DNA from: Phenylobacterium sp.
Lineage (GTDB): Bacteria; Pseudomonadota; Alphaproteobacteria; Caulobacterales; Caulobacteraceae
Direction: 5' to 3'
Assembly: GCF_016124325.1 (NCBI RefSeq)
Contig: NZ_WGNY01000003.1
Coordinates: forward strand, 1 to 64,000
Length of the DNA: 64,000 bases
The notes beneath the pieces were generated by a model that had not been told where the DNA came from, made no database searches, and saw nothing but the letters and a program-made list of their open reading frames with translations. This document shows, one piece after another, positions 3,263 to 27,534 of this stretch (its first letter is position 1; the number at the start of each line of letters is the position of its first letter). The position numbers were made by a program, and so were the translations under genes.

Positions 3263-3277
3263 GAACAAATGCGGAAC
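3263..3277. promoter_or_regulatory. Possible LexA box (GAAC-N7-GAAC)
   Basis: GAAC-AAATGCG-GAAC matches the alphaproteobacterial LexA box, but the spacer is less A+T rich than the other three. The only intact gene nearby is the plus-strand enoyl-CoA hydratase 94 bases downstream. It may be a chance match or a leftover from the disrupted minus-strand gene. Confidence 0.3.
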
Positions 3278-8808: not shown

Positions 8809-10293
8809 ATGGCCCATACCTTTCGACTAGTGCGGGCCGGCGGTGGAGCGGACGGTAGCGGATTGCAATCGGCGGGCAATCTTCCTCCAACGGTCACCTT
8901 CTCTGATCCGAACACACCGGGTGGGTCTGAATGCAACTATTCAATTATCATTGGGAACAATGGATCGGGAAAGAGCCGTCTGCTCGGAAAAATCGCGAGC
9001 GACTTAGTGAGTATGTACCGCGGCGGCTCAGGGCGCGAGCGCTATGCTCGACTTGATTGTCTTGAATACCTTTGCGATGGGACCCGCGTTGCTCTGCGTG
9101 GACGCCCGATTGAATCACTGACGCTCGAAAATCTGGAGGCGCCGACGCCGCTCCCCACTCGGGTGATCGCCGTCGCGCTCACTCCAGTCGACAAATTTCC
9201 GCTGGAGCCGTCTAGCGACGGCGACGACATCCCACTCGGGGATATCCAGCAACTCCGCGACGGCGTGTCCTTCTACCACTACATCGGCATGCGCGACCGC
9301 ACGAACCGCGCCTCAGTTGTGGCCCTGCTCTACCGCGCCTTGGAAGGGCTGGGAGGCCAGCGAAGCGCCGCCGAGGCTGTTCGGCTGCGCGGTGTGTTCG
9401 AATTGTTGGGATACGAGCCCCGCATCCGGGCAAGGCTCAAGGCCACTATTGGGCGTGATGTGCAAGCCTTCCTGCAGGGCGGTGTCGACCTGGATAAGGC
9501 CAAGGATGACGATACGAGGCTTCTGAAGCGTCTCCGGAACGTCGTAAGGTCCGGCGCCCTCAGCGAGGCCTGGCTGCGCGAGATGCTCGCCGGCGTCACG
9601 CCGTTCTTGGCCAAGCAAGGTCTGGAGCTTGATCTGCGGTTCGGAAATGGGGCGCCGGCTTTGCCATTCGACGGCGAAGCATTGCGACTGCTCCGCCGCC
9701 TTGGCGCGCTTACTCTGTCGTCGATTGATGTCTGGAGGTCTGACGGAACCCGCCACGATTTGCGTGAGGCGAGCTCTGGCGAGATCAGCATCCTAACGGT
9801 CTTTCTGTCCATCGCTGCCCACCTTCGCGATGGAAGCCTCGTCCTGGTGGATGAACCGGAGACGAGCCTGCACCCGGAGTGGCAGAGCAAATATGTCCAC
9901 CTAATGCGCGAGGTATTCGCAACCTACTCGGGCTGCCATTTCATTCTTAGCACCCACAGCCCCCTCATCGTCGCCGACCTACCAGAAGGGTCATGGGTAT
10001 ACTCGATGGACCGCGCCAGCAGCGTGTCGACCAATGAATTGCTCGGTCGTTCACCGGACTACGTGATGGCCAAGGCCTTCGACGTCATCAGCCCGACCAA
10101 CTACTACCTGCGCGACGTGCTTGCCGAGGCCCTACGGCTGGTGGGCGAGCGGCAGATTCGGAGCCCGGAGTTTGACGCCAAGCTCTCCGAACTAGTCCGG
10201 CTTGCCGGCAATATGGACGGCGGGGAGCAGATCAAGGAGATCGTCAAGGACCTACAGGTCGCCAAGGATGAGCTGGCGACCGATGGCGATTAA
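8809..10293 (+). CDS. ptuA: AAA ATPase, Septu PtuA-like
   Basis: A 494-residue ABC/AAA_15-type (OLD/SMC-like) ATPase. Walker A is GNNGSGKS at 49-56. The signature region reads LREASSGEISILTVF, Walker B is SLVLVDEPETSLHPEW with D348-E349, and the switch histidine is in ILSTHSPLIV. A long helical insert separates Walker A from the signature. An HNH nuclease gene overlaps its end by 11 bases. ATPase plus HNH nuclease is the composition of the Septu anti-phage system (PtuA/PtuB), where the ATPase holds the nuclease until infection. ATG 8809 gives the compact N-terminus; the track start at 8680 reads through non-coding sequence. There is no reverse transcriptase, so it is not a retron. Confidence 0.75.
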   Translation: MAHTFRLVRAGGGADGSGLQSAGNLPPTVTFSDPNTPGGSECNYSIIIGNNGSGKSRLLGKIASDLVSMYRGGSGRERYARLDCLEYLCDGTRVALRGRPIESLTLENLEAPTPLPTRVIAVALTPVDKFPLEPSSDGDDIPLGDIQQLRDGVSFYHYIGMRDRTNRASVVALLYRALEGLGGQRSAAEAVRLRGVFELLGYEPRIRARLKATIGRDVQAFLQGGVDLDKAKDDDTRLLKRLRNVVRSGALSEAWLREMLAGVTPFLAKQGLELDLRFGNGAPALPFDGEALRLLRRLGALTLSSIDVWRSDGTRHDLREASSGEISILTVFLSIAAHLRDGSLVLVDEPETSLHPEWQSKYVHLMREVFATYSGCHFILSTHSPLIVADLPEGSWVYSMDRASSVSTNELLGRSPDYVMAKAFDVISPTNYYLRDVLAEALRLVGERQIRSPEFDAKLSELVRLAGNMDGGEQIKEIVKDLQVAKDELATDGD

Positions 10294-10906
10294 TCCCATC
10301 GTTTTCACCGTCGAAGAGCTTGCTCAGATAAAAGCTGTCCGCGATCAGGGCGGCGGCTGGGACAGCGACGACCTCAATGCCATCAGGTCTCGGATCAAGC
10401 AGTTTTACCTGCAGGGCCAGCAGTTCAAATGCTGCTACTGCCGTCGAGAAAATGTGGTCCAGCACGGACGCGCATGGGACGTCGAGCACATCATTTCCCG
10501 GAAGGCCAACGCGGCCTTCATGTTCGAGCCAGAGAACCTCGCCGTGGCTTGCATCGACTGCAACCTGGCGAAATTGGACGCCAACATTCTAGCGCGGCCG
10601 AGGGTTCGGTTTCCTCGCGCGTCCGACGCGTACACCATCGTGCATCCCCACTTCGACGACTGGGACGCCCACTTTCTTTTGATCGGAGTGCTCTACAACC
10701 CCCTCTCTGCGAAGGGTGCTGAGACCATCAAGATTTGCAAGCTCTGGAGGTTCTACAACCTCGTTGGTTCTGATGCCCTTTTCAACGAGGATGGTCGGTA
10801 TGTCCGGCTGGCGGAACAGGTGCTCTTCGCCAAAACGGCCGCGGAGGCAGAGCCTGCAGTTCTGGCCATGCGTGAAATGATCCAAGAAGCGAAGGACGAT
10901 GCCTGA
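10283..10906 (+). CDS. ptuB: HNH endonuclease, Septu PtuB-like
   Basis: A 207-residue HNH nuclease. The zinc Cys pairs are C50/C53 (CCYC) and C90/C93 (CIDC), and the metal/catalytic core is VEHIISRK with H69, then N85 in EPENLAVAC and N94/K97 in NLAKLD. It starts inside the 3' end of the ATPase gene (ATG 10283, 11-base overlap), so the two are translationally coupled and probably form a complex. In Septu, PtuB is the nuclease released when the ATPase senses infection (family knowledge). The C-terminal half is helical and unlike other HNH proteins I know. Confidence 0.75.
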   Translation: MAINPIVFTVEELAQIKAVRDQGGGWDSDDLNAIRSRIKQFYLQGQQFKCCYCRRENVVQHGRAWDVEHIISRKANAAFMFEPENLAVACIDCNLAKLDANILARPRVRFPRASDAYTIVHPHFDDWDAHFLLIGVLYNPLSAKGAETIKICKLWRFYNLVGSDALFNEDGRYVRLAEQVLFAKTAAEAEPAVLAMREMIQEAKDDA

Positions 10907-10921
10907 TGGCGAACTCTAGGT

Positions 10922-11485
10922 CTATCGCCTCTGGCTGCTGGCCAGTGCACAGCCAGCGAAGCGGTGCAGGTCGAAATTGGTCCGCCCGAACAAGCGGCCA
11001 AGGCCAGGGTTGATGACGTCGAGGCCGAGCCCGGCGGTCTCAGCGATCGAGAGAATGAAAGCCGGTTCCGCGGTGCCAATGTAGAAGGCAACGTAAGGAA
11101 ACGCCGCGACGTGATCGCCGCCGAACCCGCCCGCATTGCAGCTGGCAACCGGGACCGCGCCCAGAGCTGATAGAGCGAGTGTGGCGGCAGCCGTGCCAAG
11201 GTCGAGGTCCCAGATCGCGTCGAGTTCGTCGAGGGCGTCGGCACGCTCTTCGTCGAACCGCTCTGCTTCTTGATCCCGGTCGACGGCGGCGGCAAAGCGC
11301 TCGAAGAGCGCCGTTTCCCGCTGGAGGACGTCGGCGACGTTATCCCAGGTGAAGCCCCTCAAATCGCGGTACTGCAGGTTACCCGCGAGGCAGTCCTCCT
11401 CTCCATTTTCGAGTTCCTCGGTACTAGGGTTGATCAGCTCCGCGGCGGGGAAATTGCGGACCAGCTCAACGGCGTAGGTTTCCAT
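10922..11485 (-). CDS. Unknown island protein behind a LexA box
   Basis: A 187-residue protein convergent with ptuB (stops 15 bases apart). The N-terminal half is acidic and helical (EELENGEEDCLAGN, ETALFERFAAAVDR). The C-terminal half has a distinctive ALGAVPVASCNAGGFGGDH turn, then PYVAFYIGTAEPAF, suggesting a beta-rich domain with a conserved Cys/Asn/Gly loop. I do not know the family. ATG 11485 is chosen over the track start and over ATG 11569, because the LexA box at 11518-11532 and the RHH operator would otherwise lie inside the coding region. It is probably induced by DNA damage. Position suggests a defence or toxin role, which is unproven. Confidence 0.6.
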   Translation of the reverse strand: METYAVELVRNFPAAELINPSTEELENGEEDCLAGNLQYRDLRGFTWDNVADVLQRETALFERFAAAVDRDQEAERFDEERADALDELDAIWDLDLGTAAATLALSALGAVPVASCNAGGFGGDHVAAFPYVAFYIGTAEPAFILSIAETAGLGLDVINPGLGRLFGRTNFDLHRFAGCALASSQRR

Positions 11486-11517
11486 CGGATATTGGAGGTT
11501 GACTTTGCAGGAGATTG

Positions 11518-11532
11518 GAACAAAATAAGAAC
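11518..11532 (-). promoter_or_regulatory. LexA (SOS) box GTTC-N7-GTTC
   Basis: On the minus strand the sequence is GTTC-TTATTTT-GTTC, an exact direct-repeat LexA box with a T-rich spacer. It lies 32 bases before the start of the unknown island gene and between it and the divergent RHH gene. Confidence 0.7.
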
Positions 11533-11549
11533 TGTACCTGGCGTCGGCG

Positions 11550-11568
11550 TGGCGCCACTCTGGCGCCA
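11550..11568. promoter_or_regulatory. Twin 8-bp palindromes, probable RHH operator
   Basis: Two copies of the self-complementary TGGCGCCA are separated by CTC, giving an 11-base centre-to-centre distance, one helical turn. That is the layout bound by cooperative ribbon-helix-helix dimers. The second copy touches the ATG of the RHH gene (11568), so binding would repress its own unit and possibly the divergent gene. Confidence 0.6.
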
Positions 11569-11777
11569 TGTTGGCCGATTCGAAAACCGCCACCGTCAGG
11601 TCGCTAGACCGCATCAATCTACGCCTGCCGGCGGAAACGTTTGAGGCGATCGACGCCGCTCGGGCAACACGACCAGGTGCCGTTTCTCGTAACACTTGGA
11701 TAACCGAAGCAATAGAAGAGAAGCTGGCGAGAGATCGCCTGCGTCGCACGCAAGGGGAAGGCGGCGAACATGCCTAG
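11568..11777 (+). CDS. Ribbon-helix-helix regulator of the R-M unit
   Basis: A 69-residue protein. Residues 11-52 form a ribbon-helix-helix fold: the strand RINLRLPAETFEAID, then a helix pair with VSRNTWITEAIEEKLAR. Such proteins bind DNA as dimers. It directly precedes the methyltransferase, overlapping it by 8 bases, and its start is embedded in a twin-palindrome operator. I infer that it plays the controller role for this restriction-modification unit, a job usually done by helix-turn-helix C proteins. It could instead be an antitoxin. The start is uncertain because the ATG overlaps the operator and no clear ribosome site is present. Confidence 0.65.
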   Translation: MLADSKTATVRSLDRINLRLPAETFEAIDAARATRPGAVSRNTWITEAIEEKLARDRLRRTQGEGGEHA

Positions 11778-12933
11778 CTTTTACGAGTTCTTCGCTGGCG
11801 GCGGGATGGCCCGCGCTGGCCTGGGGTCGGAGTGGACCTGCTTGTTCGCCAACGACTTCGACCCCAAAAAAGGCATGACCTACCAAAGAAACTGGGGGAC
11901 CGGCGGCGAATTGTTGATCGGCGACGTCGGCCAGATCAAAGCCGCCGCGCTCCCGGGCATGGCTGATCTCGTGTGGGGATCGTTCCCTTGCCAGGACCTC
12001 TCCCTCGCAGGGGGCGGTGCCGGCCTCAAGGGCGAGCGGTCAGGAACCTTCTATCCCTTCTGGGACGTCGTGACCGGACTGATCAAGGACAATCGGGCGC
12101 CCAAGATCATCGCGCTGGAGAACGTCCTTGGTACCTTGACCTCTCATGGCGGTCGAGACTTCGAGGCGATCTGCCGGACCTTTGCGGAGGCGAACTACCG
12201 CTTCGGTGCGCTGGTGATCAACGCGTCGCAGTTCCTTCCTCACTCTAGACCGCGTCTGTTCGTAGTCGGTGTGCATGAGAGCGTCGCCGTCGATCCAGGG
12301 CTTGTGTCTCCCGGACCGATCGAGCCGTTCCACACACCAGCCCTGCAGCGGGCAATGGACCGTGTCGGGGCTGAGACCCTGCAGTCGATGGTTTGGTGGA
12401 ACATCCCGTCGCCGCCCTGGCGGAACTCGACTTTCGCGGACTTTATCGAAGAGCATCCCACGAGCGTCGAGTGGCACACGGAAGCCAAGCGCGATCAGAT
12501 CGTGAGCATGATGTCGGCCGTCAACTTGGCCAAGCTGGAGGCGGCGAAGCGCGCCGGCCGCCGCATGGTGGGCGGCGTGTATCGCCGCACCCGCTTCGAT
12601 GAGCGCGGCAACAAGGTGCAACGTGCCGAGGTTCGCTTTGATGATGTGGCGGGCTGCCTACGCACCCCGGCTGGCGGTTCGAGCCGCCAAGTCATCATGG
12701 TGGTAGACGGTGAGCGCGTGCGTACGCGCCTGATTTCGGCGCGAGAGACCGCCCGCCTGATGGGCTTGGACGACAGCTACGTTTTGCCCAAGAACTACAA
12801 CGAGGCCTATCACCTCACCGGCGATGGCGTGGCAGTTCCGGTTGTCCGACACCTAGCGGCGCATCTGTTCGAGCCTCTGTTGGGTGATCAAGCGTCGAAG
12901 AAGGGTCGGGCGCGATCCGCGCGACGTGCCTGA
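11770..12933 (+). CDS. DNA cytosine-5 methyltransferase
   Basis: A 387-residue C5-cytosine methyltransferase with the motifs in canonical order: I (FYEFFAGGGMARAGLG, SAM binding), IV (SFPCQDLSLAGGG, nucleophile C74), VI (IALENVLG, E117), VIII (LPHSRPRLFVVG), then a target-recognition region (about 180-300), IX (SARETARLMG) and X (GDGVAVPVVRHLAAHLF). It modifies a specific short sequence to protect the host from the partner nuclease encoded by the next gene, which overlaps it by 50 bases. The recognition sequence cannot be read from the protein. Confidence 0.92.
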   Translation: MPSFYEFFAGGGMARAGLGSEWTCLFANDFDPKKGMTYQRNWGTGGELLIGDVGQIKAAALPGMADLVWGSFPCQDLSLAGGGAGLKGERSGTFYPFWDVVTGLIKDNRAPKIIALENVLGTLTSHGGRDFEAICRTFAEANYRFGALVINASQFLPHSRPRLFVVGVHESVAVDPGLVSPGPIEPFHTPALQRAMDRVGAETLQSMVWWNIPSPPWRNSTFADFIEEHPTSVEWHTEAKRDQIVSMMSAVNLAKLEAAKRAGRRMVGGVYRRTRFDERGNKVQRAEVRFDDVAGCLRTPAGGSSRQVIMVVDGERVRTRLISARETARLMGLDDSYVLPKNYNEAYHLTGDGVAVPVVRHLAAHLFEPLLGDQASKKGRARSARRA

Positions 12934-13663
12934 ACCCGGACCGCTTTTCGGCCGCGACCCCGACGCGACGAACGTTCCGCCGTTCGAGACCGCCGATCTT
13001 CGTGCGAATCTCGCGAGGTTCCTTGAAACGCCCTTTGCGGTGGGCCACGCGGCGCCCATGCCAGTGGGGAACTTCCGCTGGGGCGTCTACGCCTTCTTCG
13101 ACTACGATGGTGAACCGATCTACGTCGGCCAAACCAACGAGCGTCTACGCTCGCGCATTCGCCGCCACCTGACGAACCAGCGGACCGATGCTGTGGCCAT
13201 GTCGGTGCTGGACCCGTTCGAGGTCTTCGAGATCGAAGTGTGGCCGATGGCGGATCTGCAGAACGCGCCGAGGACGGACGCAACGGCGCGCCGTCGGCTC
13301 GATGCCCTTGAGCGGCTGATCACAGCTCAGGCCATCGAGAACTCTCAATTCAAGGCCATCTTGAATGAGAAGGACCCGCCTCGCGGCTCGGTAACGGTCG
13401 AGGCACCGCCGTCGTTACGGGCGCGGATCGTCTCGGATCGCGTCTTCGAAATCCGTTCGCATCCCGATTTCCGCTTGGCGCGGCGCTCGCTGATCCTGTC
13501 GCGGCTGGCGCAGGTAATTTCGGAGCGGAAGGTTCAGGGTGGTTTGCGTCGTGTGCTCCTTACTCAAGCCAAGCGTCTTCAGTGGCTGGCATCGCGCCGA
13601 TACGAAGCCCTCGGCGGCGCCGCTTCCGTCTCGACGGAAGCGGACGAGGACGCCGAAGGCTGA
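12884..13663 (+). CDS. GIY-YIG restriction endonuclease, Eco29kI-like
   Basis: A 259-residue GIY-YIG nuclease. GVY (67-69) and YVG (80-82) mark the two catalytic strands. R91/R94/H95 in RSRIRRHL supply the basic residues, E143 in ALERLI is the metal-binding Glu, and N153 in IENSQF is a likely further ligand. The order Y-Y-R-H-E-N matches what is known for Eco29kI, which cuts CCGCGG. The start is GTG 12884, 50 bases inside the methyltransferase gene, so the two are cotranslated. N- and C-terminal extensions of about 45 and 90 residues are larger than in Eco29kI. Cutting specificity is inferred to match the methyltransferase. Confidence 0.75.
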   Translation: MIKRRRRVGRDPRDVPEPGPLFGRDPDATNVPPFETADLRANLARFLETPFAVGHAAPMPVGNFRWGVYAFFDYDGEPIYVGQTNERLRSRIRRHLTNQRTDAVAMSVLDPFEVFEIEVWPMADLQNAPRTDATARRRLDALERLITAQAIENSQFKAILNEKDPPRGSVTVEAPPSLRARIVSDRVFEIRSHPDFRLARRSLILSRLAQVISERKVQGGLRRVLLTQAKRLQWLASRRYEALGGAASVSTEADEDAEG

Positions 13664-27519: not shown

Positions 27520-27534
27520 GAACAAAACCAGAAC
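27520..27534 (-). promoter_or_regulatory. LexA (SOS) box GTTC-N7-GTTC
   Basis: On the minus strand the sequence is GTTC-TGGTTTT-GTTC, an exact match with a T-rich spacer, 20 bases before the DUF805 GTG start. It overlaps an inverted repeat TGGTTTT/AAAACCA (27510-27530). Confidence 0.6.

Follow-up and report, generated by a model that had tools for sequence, protein, structure and literature searches.

A defence operon that may sense its own methylation and DNA damage: putative RHH operators of cognate type and a LexA box in a shared divergent control region

Results

A Type II-like R-M unit shares its control region with a divergent gene

The window, that is the whole stretch of 64,000 nucleotides of Phenylobacterium DNA analysed here, carries at 10922-13663 a plus-strand restriction-modification (R-M) unit, in which the genes for an RHH regulator, a C5 methyltransferase and a GIY-YIG nuclease successively overlap, and a divergent minus-strand gene. 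An earlier note on this DNA had read the same gene content, and the methyltransferase and the GIY-YIG protein were recovered by Pfam. The features of the locus are as follows.

10922-11485, minus strand: divergent gene, 187 aa, of no known family, sharing the control region with the R-M unit
11499-11504, plus strand: putative -35 element TTGACT of the RHH-methyltransferase-nuclease operon, from a promoter scan
11518-11532, minus strand: alphaproteobacterial LexA box GTTCTTATTTTGTTC (plus strand GAACAAAATAAGAAC), exact GTTCN7GTTC
11522-11527, plus strand: putative -10 element AAAATA, inside the LexA box and 17 nt from the -35 element, inferred from the spacing
11539-11546, strandless: degenerate third copy of the putative operator, TGGCGTCG, in the same 11-bp register
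11550-11557, strandless: palindrome TGGCGCCA, putative RHH operator and probable R-M site
11561-11568, strandless: second palindrome TGGCGCCA, with the same putative roles, reaching the RHH start codon
11568-11777, plus strand: RHH (CopG-like) regulator, 69 aa, from Pfam, PHROGs and relatives
11770-12933, plus strand: C5 cytosine methyltransferase (Pfam DNA_methylase, 1.6e-44), GGCGCC target predicted by homology
12884-13663, plus strand: GIY-YIG nuclease (Pfam GIY-YIG, 1.4e-6), probable restriction enzyme

Methyltransferase and nuclease genes lie side by side, as in a Type II R-M system, judging from the Pfam matches and the conserved pairing. The GIY-YIG gene was the constant neighbour of the methyltransferase gene in the minimal units of the comparison described below, and its product is the probable restriction enzyme of the unit; its true start is perhaps the GTG at 12926, overlapping the methyltransferase stop. 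The general GIY-YIG domain was the sole feature that this protein has in common with the Eco29kI-type GIY-YIG restriction enzymes, and a profile of its family matched no PDB chain at E values up to 10.

The regulator matched PHROG 13890 (1e-17), whereas its own Pfam match (E=0.036) was weaker than the cut-off; the RHH signature PF01402 was matched by 8/31 of its relatives (best 4e-4), and the 11568-11777 protein alone misses the cut-off. No helix-turn-helix match was obtained for it in Pfam or PHROGs. The RHH fold is an obligate dimer; the model of the monomer reached a pLDDT of 65 (low confidence), with no PDB fold match.

For the divergent protein, searches of Pfam, NCBIfam, PADLOC, PHROGs, PDB profiles and PDB folds gave no credible match; its AlphaFold2 model had a pLDDT of 90 and the best PDB fold match an E value of 0.27. 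Relatives were absent from the viral contigs searched, and in 390 genomes of the host family 24 of 29 relatives adjoin this R-M unit. Stray copies outside the unit were seen at L202, L203, L204 and L206, two of them beside defence-like genes, a GajB-like helicase (L203) and PtuA (L206). These neighbours suggest a defence-linked family, with a fold that has no known match.

Related units occur in four architectures

The same neighbourhood, which the earlier note had proposed to look for in other genomes, was found repeatedly. Searches of plasmids, phages, viral contigs and genomes with the GIY-YIG and divergent proteins yielded 85 distinct upstream regions, from units that are mutually related and thus not independent observations. 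Four architectures could be distinguished: the divergent gene opposite RHH-methyltransferase-nuclease, as at 10922-13663; GIY-YIG divergent from RHH-methyltransferase, in Sphingomonas plasmids and relatives and in a metagenomic phage contig; RHH-methyltransferase-nuclease with neither the divergent gene nor a divergent GIY-YIG gene; and methyltransferase-nuclease without RHH. The layout spans Caulobacterales, Sphingomonadales and Methylocystis, on plasmids as well as chromosomes, so that it is testable in culturable strains. Many units, though not the window, also encode a Type II restriction enzyme of 285 aa (PADLOC PDLC03501, E 1.7e-111), which at L041:7136-7993 and L043:3670-4518 lies between the methyltransferase and GIY-YIG genes, giving two nucleases and one methyltransferase.

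An exact LexA box overlaps a promoter-like layout

The perfect LexA box claimed at 11518-11532 is indeed an exact match to GTTCN7GTTC, the alphaproteobacterial consensus confirmed in PMC12700426. Across the 4.9-Mb genome (58 contigs) this pattern occurred at 136 sites, compared with 39 for a reversed control pattern, and boxes of the same type lie ~57 nt upstream of the lexA match and ~136 nt upstream of the recA match, so this box type is the one that the host LexA should use. Upstream of the RHH genes the box was exact in 19/39 regions, carried one mismatch in 18/39 and was missing from 2/39; the 19 exact boxes compare with 0.26 expected and at most 2 in any of 200 shuffles. The RHH-less regions had an exact box in 13/46 cases (0.38 in shuffles), in either orientation and at different distances, a count that is inflated by relatedness, since two permuted controls themselves gave 8 and 5. 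The only other-phylum LexA box found in the upstream regions was CGAACN4GTTCG, at -134 in the Mycobacterium unit L047. The commonest imperfect variant, GTTTN7GTTC, gave 246 genome-wide hits versus 194 for its control, no clear enrichment, and its use as an ordinary SOS box in the genomes with imperfect boxes is thus unsupported.

In nine units, all with the divergent gene, TTGAC stands exactly 13 nt before the box, which places the AAAATA within the box at the 17-nt spacing; this promoter-like pair would be well laid out for sigma-70 transcription into RHH. Among the units without the divergent gene, TTGAC was not seen at the 13-nt spacing.

Which promoter the box serves was then judged from the related units. 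According to the earlier note, LexA controls the divergent gene only, as an SOS-induced partner, and RHH alone controls the R-M operon. The box does lie ~32 nt from the start of the divergent gene, and four RHH-less units that have this gene (L106, L122, L162 and L163) keep an exact box closer to it than to the methyltransferase gene. Across the related units, however, the presence of the box is uncoupled from the divergent gene: boxes accompany a divergent GIY-YIG gene or no recognised divergent gene at all (L043, L044, L053, L060, L076, L109 and L111), in the Sphingomonas layout the box sits between RHH-methyltransferase and the nuclease gene, none of the four stray copies of the divergent gene that are informative has a LexA box before it, and the box at this locus overlaps the promoter-like layout into RHH. 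Because of the boxes without the gene and the gene copies without boxes, the idea that the box belongs solely to the divergent gene was rejected. A LexA input to the shared divergent region is supported, whereas exclusive control of the divergent gene is unlikely. The simplest reading is that the shared box over the divergent promoter region would serve the R-M operon, and perhaps the divergent gene too. The loop proposed earlier, from restriction damage through the SOS response to the divergent gene, might exist.

It is quite unlikely that the box is instead a promoter element accidentally resembling a LexA site. Such an element would fit the overlap with the predicted -10 and the imperfect right half in half of the RHH units, where most mismatches of the one-mismatch boxes fall, but the exact boxes carry 12 different spacers between constant half-sites, and the surplus of exact boxes over shuffles in the RHH-less regions also points away from chance, though the permuted controls temper it.

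Repeated palindromes track the RHH gene at an 11-bp pitch

The twin palindromes described in the earlier note are real: TGGCGCCA is present twice within 11550-11568. The exact pair TGGCGCCAN3TGGCGCCA occurs once in the 4.9-Mb genome (58 contigs), where the next best sites have two mismatches, and the same-genus units L037 and L038 have an intact GGCGCC at the place of the degenerate third copy.

GGCGCC was found within 35 nt of the RHH start in 39/39 distinct RHH units and in 0/45 RHH-less ones (Fisher p ~7e-25, a value that is not literal since the units are kin), and in 38/38 versus 0/20 when only methyltransferases at least 67% identical were considered, so that the association had no exception among the compared units. 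The operators come in two to three copies, neighbouring GGCGCC copies are 11 bp apart in 46/46 cases with the consensus TGGCGCCA, T and A are the preferred flanks of the core, and some third copies that have lost GGCGCC still keep the 11-bp register. Brevundimonas units without the RHH gene (L083, L085 and L087) retain the LexA box and have lost the palindromes or kept one relic. Supportively, in the 390 genomes of the host family 29 of 30 RHH relatives adjoin this methyltransferase, a contig end truncating the remaining one, and the palindrome is present at all of them. From the co-occurrence with RHH, the 11-bp pitch, the Brevundimonas losses and the 390-genome survey, the palindromes are best read as the RHH operator; that RHH is the controller acting on them, as first proposed, agrees with the exceptionless co-occurrence and the constant pitch across genera. 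That they are a by-product of the methyltransferase was rejected, given their dependence on the RHH gene.

Sister RHH families outside this R-M system were also sought, to see whether their operators would track another cognate site; 385 genomes gave three distant matches, none beside this methyltransferase. One distant relative away from this R-M system (L208:100-403) has an AACGTT pair upstream at the 11-bp pitch, which is either a sister operator of other sequence or chance.

The operator core is probably the cognate site of the system

In the methylation study of Rhizobium leguminosarum RCAM1026, GGCGCC was almost fully methylated and was assigned to two R-M clusters (PMC8709438). The methyltransferase of its plasmid pRL11 (L051/L207) is 68% identical to the 11770-12933 enzyme, and the expected target-recognition stretch between the conserved methyltransferase motifs is well conserved between the two. 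Given this identity and the methylation of GGCGCC in RCAM1026, the operators probably include the sequence that the system itself targets, the core GGCGCC being the probable recognition and methylation site of the methyltransferase family, which the first description of the palindromes had overlooked. The homology behind this predicted target covers the methyltransferase and not the nuclease. The pRL11 unit differs from the present one in having no RHH gene, no repeated operators and no exact LexA box; its GIY-YIG gene is broken into two pieces (L051:5001-5397), and it has another, intact Type II nuclease. GGCGCC was seen 154 times in the window, against 179 expected from a Markov model and 135 from shuffling, an avoidance that is slight at most and uninformative.

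That the palindromes are methylation sites only, so that leader methylation tunes transcription while RHH acts elsewhere, would suit the motif reported in the host of the 68%-identical enzyme and the precedent of CfrBI, where a cognate site in the promoter can regulate the R-M system (PMC12707154), but it is very unlikely, since the sites vanish without the RHH gene though the methyltransferase is conserved, and since the 11-bp pitch, the flanking T and A and the register-keeping degenerate copies fit a bound protein.

Proposed control of the operon

Taking the palindromes as RHH operators, we favour, with somewhat better than even confidence, a mobile Type II-like R-M operon in which RHH would repress its own unit from the repeated sites of cognate type, and LexA would be a second repressor acting on the shared region. 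The box, the operators with their register, the RHH co-occurrence and the promoter-like layout are read from the DNA itself; what the mechanism would add to them is that RHH binds and represses, that LexA binds, that the nuclease is the restriction enzyme, and in which direction SOS acts. To repress the operon, RHH would bind the TGGCGCCA operators, which lie in phase with one another after the predicted transcription start and before the RHH start codon, and LexA would bind the box covering the predicted -10 of the operon. Because the box covers this -10 and is near the divergent gene, damage to DNA would increase the transcription of the RHH, methyltransferase and nuclease genes jointly, and possibly that of the divergent gene as well; within the operon the methyltransferase gene precedes the nuclease gene. 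Weak points of this mechanism are the frequency of one-mismatch boxes, the unenriched GTTTN7GTTC variant and the low-confidence RHH model.

With the operators probably being the system's own target, the methylation state of the leader might also set operon expression. Methylation sensing by RHH is plausible when taken alone; the full proposal, in which RHH is a methylation sensor and LexA adds a damage input, is tentative, and we think it could well be wrong. If the full proposal is true, the damage input through LexA would let the operon be re-set when DNA is damaged or when a new host is entered.

It has long been asked how R-M systems ensure that methylation stays ahead of cutting. A regulator with cognate-site operators would read the very state it must protect, and a LexA box on an R-M promoter would link restriction with the damage that it causes when unbalanced, so that such a defence operon may respond to its own methylation as well as to DNA damage.

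Comparison with known systems

As in the C-protein Type II R-M systems (PvuII, AhdI, Kpn2I and Esp1396I), the unit begins with the gene of a small DNA-binding regulator, and repeated operators lie upstream of the controller gene, here in two to three copies at an 11-bp pitch. C proteins are helix-turn-helix proteins, whereas the regulator here is RHH-like, so that it falls outside the helix-turn-helix controllers. We know of no C-box that is a cognate site, whereas the operator core here probably is one. A LexA input to C-protein-controlled systems is not described in the reviews consulted, and the RHH unit has a LexA box. CfrBI has its own R-M site in the control region, as the RHH unit probably has, judging by homology, but it requires no separate regulator protein; the sites described here are confined to units with the RHH gene and stand in tandem, 11 bp apart. 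The RHH repressors Omega and PaaR of three-part toxin-antitoxin systems also head their operons and bind repeats cooperatively; they control toxin-antitoxin genes, whereas the RHH gene here heads a methyltransferase and a nuclease.

The symE gene of E. coli lies close to a restriction locus. It is LexA-repressed (PMC1891008, PMC3874152), but it encodes a toxin with an antisense RNA, the proteins are unrelated and LexA there is not over an R-M promoter. The parts of the present unit (R-M genes, RHH repressor and LexA box) are each known. Their combination, an RHH in the place of a C protein with coupling to SOS, was unfamiliar to the author of the earlier note and was likewise not found in the open-access papers searched; nor did these papers yield any LexA-controlled or RHH-controlled R-M system, or any RHH operator built of cognate sites.

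Surroundings of the unit in the window

Three further AT-rich GTTCN7GTTC boxes lie near other gene starts in the window, at 480-494, 3263-3277 and 27520-27534, and mark candidate SOS genes. Directly adjoining the unit, at 8809-10906, a PtuA/PtuB (Septu) pair is convergent with the divergent gene, and the pair and the R-M unit therefore make up a small defence island.
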